Assembly (NCBI GenBank): GCA_900696495.1
Contig: CAADGI010000014.1
Location: 124,001 to 188,000 of the forward strand
DNA length: 64,000 nt
Source of the DNA: an uncultured Alphaproteobacteria bacterium
Lineage (GTDB): Bacteria > Pseudomonadota > Alphaproteobacteria > Micavibrionales > Micavibrionaceae
Direction of reading: 5' to 3'
Below, piece by piece: positions 4,751 through 55,248 of the stretch. A model generated the notes under the pieces. The model was not told where the DNA came from and did no database searches. It saw only the letters and a program-made list of their open reading frames with translations. Both the position numbers and the translations under genes were made by a program. Within the stretch, counting starts at the first letter, position 1, and each line of letters begins with the position of its first letter.

Positions 4751-4871
4751 GTTGGTTGTTTATTAGTTTGTTAAAAACGGCATATGGAACGAACTAAGTG
4801 AAAGTTGTTTAAAATCAAAGAGGGAGACCACCCCCTCCCGAAATGAACCCAAACAAACTATATAGAACCCC

Positions 4872-5669
4872 ATGGTCCAGTTTACGCTCCCGCAGAATTC
4901 CAAAATCCTCCCCGGCAGAAAAATAGACGCCGCAGGGAATGCCTCCCGTAAAAAAACCTTCCGCATTTACCGCTGGGACCCGGATACAAACGAAAATCCG
5001 CGCCTCGACGAGTACACGATCGATCTCTCCAAATGCGGTCCGATGGTTCTCGATGCGATCATCTACATCAAGGACAAGATCGACTCGACGCTGACTTTCC
5101 GCCGCTCCTGCCGCGAAGGCATCTGCGGTTCCTGCTCGATGAATATCGACGGCACGAATACACTCGCCTGCACGAAGGCCATTCATGACTGCGGTGACAA
5201 CACCAAGATCACGCCGCTGCCGCACATGGCGGTGGTCAAGGACCTCGTGCCCGACCTCAAGCATGTTTACAAACAATACGAATCCATCGAGCCATGGATG
5301 CAGAACGACGATCCTGTGCCGGAAAACGGCCGCGAACGCCTGCAGACCCAGGCCGACTCCGAAGCCCTCAACGGCGCCGACGGCCACGGTCCCGCCGGCT
5401 GCATCCTCTGTTTCTGCTGCTCCACCGCGTGCCCCAGCTACTGGTGGAATTCCGATAAATTCCTTGGGCCCGCTGTTTTGTTACAGGCCTGGCGCTGGAT
5501 CCGCGACACGCGCGACAAGGCGAAGGCAAAGCGTCTCGAAAAACTCAAGGACCCGTTCAGCATGTATCGCTGCCACACGATCATGAACTGCACGAAGACA
5601 TGCCCCAAGGGATTGAACCCCGCGCAGGGCATCGCCGAAATCAAGAAGCTCATGGTTTCGGGCGAATAA
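4872..5669 (+). CDS. sdhB: Succinate dehydrogenase iron-sulfur subunit
   Basis: SdhB carries electrons from the flavin of SdhA to quinone. The N-terminal ferredoxin domain has [10 protein letters not shown] for the [2Fe-2S] cluster; the C-terminal domain has [16 protein letters not shown] and [17 protein letters not shown] for the [4Fe-4S] and [3Fe-4S] clusters. At 265 residues it is of normal length. No strong ribosome binding site precedes the ATG, and the gene is set off from sdhA by 167 bases with a hairpin, unlike the overlapping sdhC-D-A junctions. Confidence 0.96.
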
Positions 5670-34381: not shown

Positions 34382-34751
34382 TCAGAAGATCGGATGGCCG
34401 CTCCGAAAGGGGAGGAAAGTCCGGGCTTCATGGAAATACAGCGCCGGGTAACGCCCGGGCGGCGCAAGCCGACAGACAGTGCAACAGAAAGCAAACCGCC
34501 CTGCGTAGCGTTAGCGAAGCAGGGTAAGGGTGAAAGGGTGGGGTAAGAGCCCACCGCGTTCCCGGTAACGGAAACGGCACGGTAAACCTCGCTGGAAGCA
34601 AGACCAAATAGGGACTGCAGGTTATTGACTTAACAGGCGCATTTTCACGCCGCAGTCCGGGTAGGTCGCTCGAGGTGTCTGGTAACAGCCATCCCAGATG
34701 AATGGCCGTCCCTTCGCAAGAAGGACAGAACCCGGCTTACAGATCCTCTGA
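34382..34751 (+). ncRNA. rnpB: RNase P RNA component (class A)
   Basis: This is the catalytic RNA that trims tRNA 5' ends. Diagnostic universally conserved blocks are visible: GGAGGAAAGTCCGGGC near the 5' end, ACGGAAACGGCACGGTAAACC and GCAAGACCAAATAGG in the middle, GTAGGTCGCTCGAGG, and AGAACCCGGCTTACAG near the 3' end. Terminal stem P1 forms between TCAGAAGATC and GATCCTCTGA, which sets the limits given. The position between an amidase and mraZ is common in alphaproteobacteria. Confidence 0.97.
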
Positions 34752-34762
34752 TATTCCTTGTG

Positions 34763-51909: not shown

Positions 51910-53178
51910 ATGAAGCACAAACACAAACCCAGAGGCTCTCTCCTCGCTGCCCTCGATATCGGCAGCAGCAAGATCACGTGCTTCATCGGCCGCGTTGCCG
52001 ATAATGAAGGCGGGTTTGAAGTTTTAGGTGTCGGGCATCATGCATCCAAGGGTGTCAAGAACGGCACGATCACCGATCTGAATGCCGCTGAAAATGTCCT
52101 GCGCCAGACCGTCCACGCCGCCGAGAACATGGCCGCTAATGTCATGAAGGGTTACCCGCTGCGCGAGGTGGTTGTGAATTTGCCGGGCGTGCACGCGGTA
52201 AGCCACGCGCACCGGGCGGACTTGCAGATCGCCGGACATGAAATTACCGATAACGACGTGCGCCGGGCGCTGGCCAAGGCGCAGGAAAACGTCATGAGCG
52301 ACGATTTCGAACTCATTCATACCGTGCCGATCAACTATCACATCGACGGGCACGAAGGCATCCGCGAACCGCGCGGCATGTTCGGCCAGAATATGAGCGT
52401 CGATATCCATATGGTGACGGGCGATATGTCGGCGCTGCGCAATATCGCGACCTGCATCGATCGTTCGCATCTCGATATCTCGGCCTTCTGCACGTCGTCT
52501 TATGCCTCAGGCCTCGCATGCCTCGTGGAAGACGAAATGGATCTGGGCTGCACGCTGATCGATATGGGCGGCGGTGTAACTTCTTATGCGGTGTTTCATG
52601 GGGGCTCGATTATTTACAGCGACGCTATCCCCATCGGCGGCCAGCATGTCACCAGCGACATCGCGCGCGGCCTGACGACCTCGCTGGCCGATGCCGAGCG
52701 GCTGAAAGTTTTGTACGGCAGCGCGCTGGGCGCGGGCCATGACGAGAGCGAACTGATCGACGTGCCGAGATTAGGTGAAGATGAACGCCATCAGCCCAAC
52801 CACGTGCCGAGATCGTTGCTTGTCGGCATCATTCAGCCCCGCATCGAGGAAATTTTCGAACTGGTACGGGCAAGATTGCATGACAGCGGCCTCGGTCCCG
52901 CGCTGGGCCGCCGCGTGGTGCTGACTGGCGGCGCGTCGCAGATCGCAGGACTTCGAGACATCGCCCAGCACGTGATGGACAAGCAGGTGCGGATGGGCCG
53001 CCCCATCCGCCTCAGCGGTTTGCCTGACGCCGTCAGCGGCCCGGCCTTTTCCACCGCCGCCGGGCTGCTCACTTATGTCTCAGAACGCGCCGACGAAATG
53101 CCCGCGACAATCATGGAGCAGGCCGAAGCGGGAAGCGTGTGGGAACGCGCACGGTTGTGGCTTCGCGAAAATTGGTAG
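51910..53178 (+). CDS. ftsA: Cell division protein FtsA
   Basis: FtsA is the actin-like ATPase that tethers FtsZ to the membrane. It begins with LLAALDIGSSKITCFIG (phosphate 1), has the SHQ/1C subdomain, LIDMGGGVTSYAVFHGG (phosphate 2) and VVLTGGASQIAGLRDIAQ (adenosine motif), and ends in a C-terminal amphipathic helix (ERARLWLRENW) expected to bind membrane. Length 422. Confidence 0.96.
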   Translation: MKHKHKPRGSLLAALDIGSSKITCFIGRVADNEGGFEVLGVGHHASKGVKNGTITDLNAAENVLRQTVHAAENMAANVMKGYPLREVVVNLPGVHAVSHAHRADLQIAGHEITDNDVRRALAKAQENVMSDDFELIHTVPINYHIDGHEGIREPRGMFGQNMSVDIHMVTGDMSALRNIATCIDRSHLDISAFCTSSYASGLACLVEDEMDLGCTLIDMGGGVTSYAVFHGGSIIYSDAIPIGGQHVTSDIARGLTTSLADAERLKVLYGSALGAGHDESELIDVPRLGEDERHQPNHVPRSLLVGIIQPRIEEIFELVRARLHDSGLGPALGRRVVLTGGASQIAGLRDIAQHVMDKQVRMGRPIRLSGLPDAVSGPAFSTAAGLLTYVSERADEMPATIMEQAEAGSVWERARLWLRENW

Positions 53179-53179
53179 A

Positions 53180-53351
53180 GATTCGCTAAATTATCCACAA
53201 TATTGTGTGTATAAGCCTGTGAGTCCCGCTATATATAGACGTTTGATTTGAAAAACTGAATCAAATGAATCATTTAGCGAATTTCCTTGAATCTTTTTGT
53301 CAGCGCCGGATAGCATGGAAGTAGCACGAATCTGCGTAAAACTCCTGAATC
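53180..53351. promoter_or_regulatory. ftsZ upstream control region: two DnaA boxes and seven GANTC sites
   Basis: In the 285-base ftsA-ftsZ gap I find a perfect DnaA box TTATCCACA (53191-53199) and, inverted 6 bases later, TGTGTATAA (53206-53214, box TTATACACA). GANTC sites, the target of the CcrM methylase in alphaproteobacteria, start at 53180, 53221, 53258, 53267, 53289, 53328 and 53347. An 11-base inverted repeat ATTCGCTAAAT/ATTTAGCGAAT (53181-53191, 53272-53282) encloses the DnaA boxes. In Caulobacter, ftsZ is controlled by DnaA and by GANTC methylation, so a cell-cycle promoter is likely. The rest of the gap, up to AAGGGGGCC before the ATG, shows no gene. Confidence 0.75.
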
Positions 53352-53463
53352 TCCTAACTTTTTCCCTTTTCTGAATTCCCGAAGTTGTTACACTTTTCGC
53401 AATTCCTACCACGAGGCTGTTCTTCAGCTTTGTAACCCGTTCAAACCCGACAAGGGGGCCAAA

Positions 53464-55248
53464 ATGATCAATATCAAAATGCAGCCGAAAGCAACGCAGA
53501 AGCTTTCCCCGAAAATCATCGTCATCGGCGTGGGAGGCGCGGGCGGAAATGCCGTCAACAACATGATCTCCTCCAACCTCGAAGGATGCGAATTCCTGGT
53601 CTGCAACACGGACGCCCAGGCCCTTGAGAACACCCTTTGCCCGCCGGAGCGCCAGATACAGCTCGGCGCCCATGTCACGGGCGGCCTCGGTGCGGGATCG
53701 AAACCTGAAATCGGAAAAGCCGCGGCGGAAGAGTCGCTGGAAGACGTGATGAAACATGTCGAGGGCGCGAACATGGCGTTCGTGACCTGCGGTATGGGCG
53801 GCGGCACCGGGACGGGGGCTGCGCCTGTGATCGCAAGGGCATGCCGCGAGCGCGGAATCCTGACGGTCGGCGTCGTGACCAAGCCGTTCCATTTCGAAGG
53901 CACGCACCGCATGCGCATGGCCGATGGCGGCATCGACGAGATGCAGCAATATGTCGATACGCTGATCGTTATCCCCAACCAGAATTTGTTCCGCGTTGCG
54001 AACGAGAAGGTCGGCTTTGCCGAAGCCTTCCGCATGGTGGACGGCGTTCTGCAATCCGGCGTGCGCGGTGTCACCGACCTGATGGTCCGCCCCGGCCTGA
54101 TCAATCTCGACTTTGCCGATATCCGCACCGGCATGATGGAGATGGGCAAGGCGATGATGGGCACCGGCGAAGGGCAGGGCGACAAGCGCGCCGTGCAGGC
54201 CGCCGAAGCCGCGATCAACAACCCGCTGCTGGATGATATCTCGATGAAAGGCGCGCACGGCGTCATCATCAACGTCACCGGCGGCTATGACATGACGCTC
54301 TTTGAAGTCGACGAAGCCTGCAACCGCATCCGCGATGAAGTCGACCCTGACGCCAACATTATCTTCGGCGCGACGTTCGATGAGTCGCTGGAGGGCATCA
54401 TGCGCGTATCCATCGTTGCCACCGGCATCGAGAAGGAAGCCATGCAGAAAACCCGCGGCGGCAGCGGTGTAAACAAACTCAGCGCCGTTGGCAAAGTGGG
54501 TCTGGAGCGTGCCAGGCCCCAGACTGAAACCCATCAACAACAACAACCCGTTGCAACAGGCCGCACCTATCCCCCGGCAACGCAGCTTAACGCGCCGCCA
54601 GCTTACTCCGCCGCCGGCAATATCCGCGGTATCACCGCGCCGCCCGTTGCTACGTCCGTTGTCGCGCCCGTCGTCGCCTATGCGCGTGAGCAGGAAGCGC
54701 TGGCCTCTGCTGCCCCGGCTGTCGATCCTGAACTGGAAATTTATGAGCAGCGTGAATTCGCGGTTGCATCGGAGCCTCAGCAGGCCTTAAGCGTGCCGCA
54801 GAATACCGCACTGCATGGCGAGCGATACAAGGGCGCATTTATCCCGCCAAAACCGGTCGAGGGTGGCATCGATCCCGCGGCTTCCTTGATTTCTCCGCAG
54901 GCCTACACGCCGCCGTCACCGCAATCCTACGCGCAGACGAATACATCGCGCGGCGGCTTGCAGCTTAACCCGCCCAAGCTTCCGAACCCGGCTGATCGCA
55001 AGCGCACCCCTTCCTTGTTCGAGCGCATCACCGGAACGGTTCAGCAGCACCTGGAAGGAATCCGCGAGGAAGTCGCGCCGCGTGAACGCGCCGCGCCGCC
55101 GCGCTCGCAGCCCTCGATGGGCGGGGCATTGCCGCAGCAGGGGCCTTCGCAGGGACGTCTCAATATCGACGCTCCCGCCGCTAGACCGCGTGCCCAGGCC
55201 GACGAGGAGTTGGACATCCCGGCCTTCCTGAGACGCCAGGCGAATTGA
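53464..55248 (+). CDS. ftsZ: Cell division protein FtsZ
   Basis: FtsZ is the tubulin-like GTPase of the division ring. The GTP-binding loops are [22 protein letters not shown], the tubulin signature [10 protein letters not shown] (near residue 113) and the T7 loop LINLDFADI. The core ends near residue 320; a very long Pro/Gln/Ala-rich linker (about 240 residues) leads to the conserved C-terminal peptide [13 protein letters not shown] that binds FtsA. At 594 residues it is among the long alphaproteobacterial forms. AAGGGGGC precedes the ATG. Confidence 0.97.

Follow-up and report, generated by a model that had tools for sequence, protein, structure and literature searches.

The 64,000-nt stretch of DNA analysed here (the window) carries an accumulation of GANTC sites between the division genes ftsA and ftsZ, which raises the question of whether ftsZ in this organism is under the control of DNA methylation. 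Activation of ftsZ by CcrM methylation is known from Caulobacter, where transcription of the gene requires a methylated GANTC, a single conserved CGACTC, located between -35 and -10 (Gonzalez and Collier 2013, PMC3708114), in agreement with what the earlier note had stated of that organism. The window belongs to a Micavibrio-group alphaproteobacterium, whose genome comprises 2.04 Mb in 25 contigs; NCBI taxonomy puts the genus Micavibrio in Bdellovibrionota. The FtsA identity with two genomes of the same genus was 99-100%.

GANTC sites between ftsA and ftsZ

The ftsA-ftsZ gap is 285 bp long (53179-53463) with 41% GC. The seven GANTC sites that the earlier note had reported within 53180-53351 were all present, starting at 53180, 53221, 53258, 53267, 53289, 53328, and 53347. 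The features of the locus are as follows.

51910-53178, + strand: ftsA (TIGR01174, 365 bits)
53180-53184, unstranded: GANTC site 1 (GATTC), directly past the ftsA stop; shared at genus level at most and absent in most relatives
53191-53199, + strand: perfect DnaA box, TTATCCACA, conserved in the family
53206-53214, - strand: second DnaA box, inverted and perfect (TGTGTATAA on the + strand), degenerate in most relatives
53221-53225, unstranded: GANTC site 2 (GAGTC), without conservation
53257-53271, + strand: GANTC sites 3 and 4, tandem TGAATC-AAA-TGAATC with a 9-bp period, kept in the family
53272-53277, + strand: conserved ATTTAG directly 3' of the tandem pair
53287-53292, + strand: candidate -35, TTGAAT, of the downstream promoter P2; TTG almost always kept in the 12 closest loci
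53289-53293: GANTC site 5, overlapping the candidate -35 TTGAAT
53311-53316, + strand: candidate -10, TAGCAT, 18 bp past the -35; TAnnnT kept in most close relatives
53328-53332, unstranded: GANTC site 6 (GAATC), in the predicted leader, common to genome G001 only
53347-53351, unstranded: GANTC site 7 (GAATC), in the predicted leader, common to genome G001
53464-55248, + strand: ftsZ, 594 aa (TIGR00065, 388 bits; alphaproteobacterial C-terminal extension matched weakly)

GANTC was depleted approximately threefold in the window, with 103 sites observed against 308 ± 17 in dinucleotide shuffles. At the window rate, 0.27 sites are expected in 172 bp (Poisson P for at least seven, 1.7e-8), and shuffles of the region itself contained 0.86 on average, with seven reached in 0 of 5,000. 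The background was taken from the window, from a 300-kb sample of the genome (15 other 20-kb stretches), and from pattern searches of the genome rather than from a full count. The sample contained 2.2 GANTC per kb and at most five in any 285-bp window. Among 92 approximate intergenic regions sampled, the ftsZ gap ranked first in GANTC density at 24.6 per kb, whereas AT-rich intergenic regions averaged 3.7 per kb, so that the similar density in AT-rich regions by which the proposal could have fallen was not found. Base composition does not explain the cluster, since AT-rich 285-bp windows of the sample averaged just 0.5-0.7 sites.

A generic scan of the gap for sigma-70 promoters and terminators gave no match, and an Rfam search of the gap and of the other GANTC clusters identified no RNA. 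The sole Rfam match in the window was a bacterial RNase P RNA class A at 34382-34755. An imperfect inverted repeat of 20 nt (53178-53197 / 53266-53285) was set aside, as it did not occur in aligned relatives beyond the genus.

Conservation of the DnaA box and the tandem pair

For the comparison among relatives, we used the ftsA-ftsZ gap or as much as 400 nt preceding ftsZ, and 30 such regions were readable in the family of the window. A module of the DnaA box and the tandem pair was found in 25 of these 30, a count that does not represent 25 independent events because family members share descent. The GANTC pair with the 9-bp period was intact in 23 of the 25, and two had the second site only. 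Four additional loci of unassigned family also carried the box and the pair. The order of the elements was TTATCCACA followed by tandem TGARTC-NNN-TGARTC-AYTTAG. The distance from the DnaA box to the pair, determined at 29 loci (with the pair placed by hand on the second site in L022 and L027, which have lost the first), was 64, 65, 66 (ten loci), 67 (ten), 68 (three), 77 (three), or 85 nt (one). Hence, 28 of the 29 loci had a spacing of 64-68 nt or of 77 nt, the latter being one helical turn more. The information profile of the alignment peaked only at TTATCCACA and at TGAATC..ATGA.TCacTTAg, and the surrounding sequence was unalignable. In several family members (L030, L036, and L037) ftsA and ftsZ are 1.0-1.3 kb apart, probably with another gene inserted between them, and the module still adjoins ftsZ.

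Only the sites at 53258 and 53267 were family-wide among the seven; that at 53289 was common to several close genera, and the remaining sites were conserved at the genus or species level. Therefore, the density on which the earlier note relied, although far above background, is itself probably beside the point, as most of the seven sites lack conservation. The upstream regions of ftsZ in the family contained 14.3 GANTC per kb on average against a background of about 2-3 per kb, and those of outgroups (Rhodospirillales and others) contained zero or one GANTC. The maintenance of the tandem pair across the family argues for a function. Five of the 30 family members lacked the pair although they kept ccrM and gcrA; loss of ccrM was accordingly rejected as the cause of the missing pair. 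That the pair marks a regulon throughout the genome was considered as well and rejected, because exact TGARTCNNNTGARTC occurred just twice in the genome, the second time in an apparent coding sequence.

The two DnaA boxes, the first of them at least as well conserved as the GANTC sites, and the conservation within the family had both been overlooked by the earlier note. Perfect DnaA boxes were rare, with just three in the 64-kb window and 10 in the 300-kb sample, and an inverted pair within 30 nt occurred twice in 2.04 Mb. An inverted perfect pair lies in L090 (G000:C23:186000-196000, 5093-5127) within an apparent RuvX-type coding sequence. Upstream of ftsZ, a perfect box was found in 29 of the 30 family members and was thus commoner than the GANTC pair; together with the poor conservation of sites 1, 2, 6, and 7, this is what would be expected if the DnaA box alone set the timing of ftsZ and the GANTC sites were drift in an AT-rich spacer. 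We regard this explanation as very unlikely, because the pair holds both its sequence and its spacing amid an otherwise unalignable gap and AT-rich regions elsewhere do not show such GANTC density.

CcrM, GcrA, and the candidate promoter

The earlier note had proposed a search for ccrM and gcrA, and orthologues of both were found in the genome. The CcrM orthologue matched NF050803 with 615 bits over nearly all 350 positions (the model's own cut-off of 830 was not reached) and aligned nearly full length with the Caulobacter CcrM structure 6pbd (519 bits); it contains N6-methylase and RAMA domains. The GcrA orthologue matched PF07750 (133 bits) and the GcrA structures 7ye1 and 5yiu, and its recognition segment TRNAVIGK was identical to that of Caulobacter GcrA. 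CcrM-type (RAMA) proteins were present in 57 and GcrA in 56 of the 58 genomes searched. The presence of both genes, like the sites and their conservation, is established directly. In a Micavibrionaceae population different from the organism analysed here, GANTC methylation was measured by PacBio sequencing (PMC9296519).

In Caulobacter crescentus as at the present locus, ftsZ is preceded by GANTC and by two DnaA boxes (PMC3193534), and the genome encodes ccrM and gcrA. Caulobacter ftsN and other promoters controlled by GcrA and CcrM (PMC3885167, PMC7987155) are similar in that the promoter of a division gene depends on GANTC and is a target of GcrA, as is proposed here for ftsZ. The layouts differ, however. 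Instead of the single CGACTC between -35 and -10 of Caulobacter, a sequence that does not occur in the ftsA-ftsZ gap, the present locus and its close relatives have a tandem TGARTC pair of 9-bp period ahead of the candidate -35, and unlike in Caulobacter its distance to the DnaA box is constant at 64-68 (or 77) nt. The Caulobacter promoter also has CtrA sites (PMC3708114), whereas the CtrA box TTAA-N7-TTAA was absent from the whole 64-kb window and hence from the gap. Furthermore, GcrA-activated sites in Caulobacter tend toward the extended motif YGAKTCK (PMC7987155), which none of the seven sites fits on either strand; the conserved pair reads TGARTCR. Brevundimonas GcrA has almost no flanking preference and seemingly does not require YGAKTCK (PMC7987155). 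The claim of a methylation-controlled promoter is thus strengthened by the family-conserved pair and by ccrM and gcrA, and weakened by the lack of fit to the extended Caulobacter motif. This lack of fit suggests that the reader of the sites may be a GcrA with other preferences or another protein.

The second of these possibilities leads to a different explanation, in which the tandem element would be the operator of some transcription factor recognising TGARTC-N3-TGARTC-AYTTAG, with GANTC incidental or with methylation merely modulating the binding. In addition to the unmatched GcrA motif, the conserved bases extend past GANTC, the N is nearly always a purine, and the 9-bp period resembles a tandem binding site on nearly one face of the DNA. 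The conservation of AYTTAG and of the purine at N, which would be superfluous for a pure methylation site, is also a point against joint control by DnaA and methylation. On the other hand, either A or G at N leaves GANTC intact in nearly all loci, most relatives have additional GANTC sites grouped near the pair (14.3 per kb), and the ccrM promoter of the family is likewise rich in GANTC. An operator of this kind therefore appears unlikely.

The core promoter was assigned by eye, and the column profile backs it for the closest loci: TTGnnT, 18 bp, and TAnnnT were found at a constant distance in most of the 12 closest loci. Transcription is predicted to start near 53323, about 140 nt ahead of the ftsZ start codon. 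The candidate core promoter is not alike between close and distant relatives. In the latter it likely lies upstream of the pair instead, as exemplified by TTGACA, 17 bp, CACAAT in L075; in that arrangement the DnaA box would sit near -60, and the transcript would begin at the pair.

The GANTC cluster of the ftsZ gap is not unique in the genome; it is equalled in density by the ccrM promoter and surpassed by another intergenic stretch. Ahead of the ccrM start codon, about 80 bp contain six GANTC, and with the first codons included (L091, G000:C25:1-8000, about 2176-2320) nine occur in about 147 bp. In 21 genomes, an average of 6.0 GANTC was counted within 200 nt before ccrM, with a triplet at -32/-21/-14 often recurring; methylation feedback on ccrM is likely from this pattern. 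Upstream of gcrA (L001, 1366-1500), a DnaA box lies 135 nt and a GANTC 112 nt before the gene, and the box was found in 19 of the 21 genomes checked, that of the window included. The DnaA boxes at gcrA and the dense GANTC at ccrM indicate that matching signals mark ftsZ, gcrA, and ccrM. MipZ was considered as a second target and dropped for want of a convincing orthologue; the best matches (32 and 23 bits) are probably other ParA-type ATPases.

Two further stretches were observed. Twelve GANTC lie within 168 intergenic bp at G000:C16:22196-22363 (L088, G000:C16:17000-28000, 5197-5364), and may precede a minus-strand gene for a large repetitive protein; L088 also contains CtrA-type TTAA-N7-TTAA boxes at 4824 and 4890 (two against 0.04 expected), with a DnaA-box-like TGTGCATAA nearby. 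In L089 (G000:C8:5000-16000), five GANTC and two DnaA-type boxes occupy 5207-5320, flanked by a peptide-chain-release-factor-like gene and by a 1118-aa coiled-coil protein without a Pfam match; judged by these motifs, it is a possible second DnaA-plus-GANTC promoter.

The combination of DnaA boxes with GANTC resembles origin regions, and the second stretch of this composition, that of L089, is present at G000:C8:10207; the cluster upstream of ftsZ might therefore serve replication or DNA maintenance (as a hemimethylation mark, for DnaA titration, or as an origin-like element) rather than transcription. We consider this extremely unlikely, because there are two DnaA boxes only, the place directly upstream of ftsZ is fixed throughout the family, and promoter-like elements adjoin the cluster.

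Proposed control of ftsZ

The explanation that we favour, and hold to be somewhat probable on the motifs and their conservation, is that ftsZ has a cell-cycle-timed promoter under joint control by DnaA and CcrM methylation, which would be Caulobacter-like with a different, rigid architecture. The five family members without the pair and the unlike core promoters of close and distant relatives speak against it. We infer the binding of proteins, the methylation, and the direction and timing of the effect, as well as the identity of the reader, as follows. DnaA would bind the box at 53191, and also the inverted box at 53206, and the GANTC sites of the tandem pair at 53257-53271 would be methylated by CcrM. 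The pair would be read by a methyl-dependent factor, for which GcrA in association with sigma-70 RNA polymerase is the most likely candidate, and transcription would proceed from the -35 TTGAAT (53287) and the -10 TAGCAT (53311). Once the replication fork has passed, the sites would stay hemimethylated until full methylation is re-established by CcrM, and ftsZ output would thereby follow replication. As for the extra GANTC sites of this species, they may contribute to the response or have no effect on it.

The DnaA box and the pair are separated by a constant distance of about 6.3 helical turns, or one more, which suggests that the two bound proteins need to be oriented toward each other, or each toward RNA polymerase. 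A more specific form of joint control is possible, if doubtful: DnaA and a methylation reader on the tandem pair would form a helically phased composite module, and ftsZ would fire only on initiation of replication combined with a given methylation state of the pair. The reader in such a module may be a GcrA pair of altered specificity or an undescribed factor.

The Micavibrio group is partly predatory, and to our knowledge little is known of the coupling of division and replication outside a few alphaproteobacterial models. The organism analysed here probably couples division to DNA replication in a manner close to that of Caulobacter, through a different promoter layout. These findings suggest that the DnaA-GcrA-CcrM circuit extends to the Micavibrio group, where it would have been rebuilt around ftsZ.
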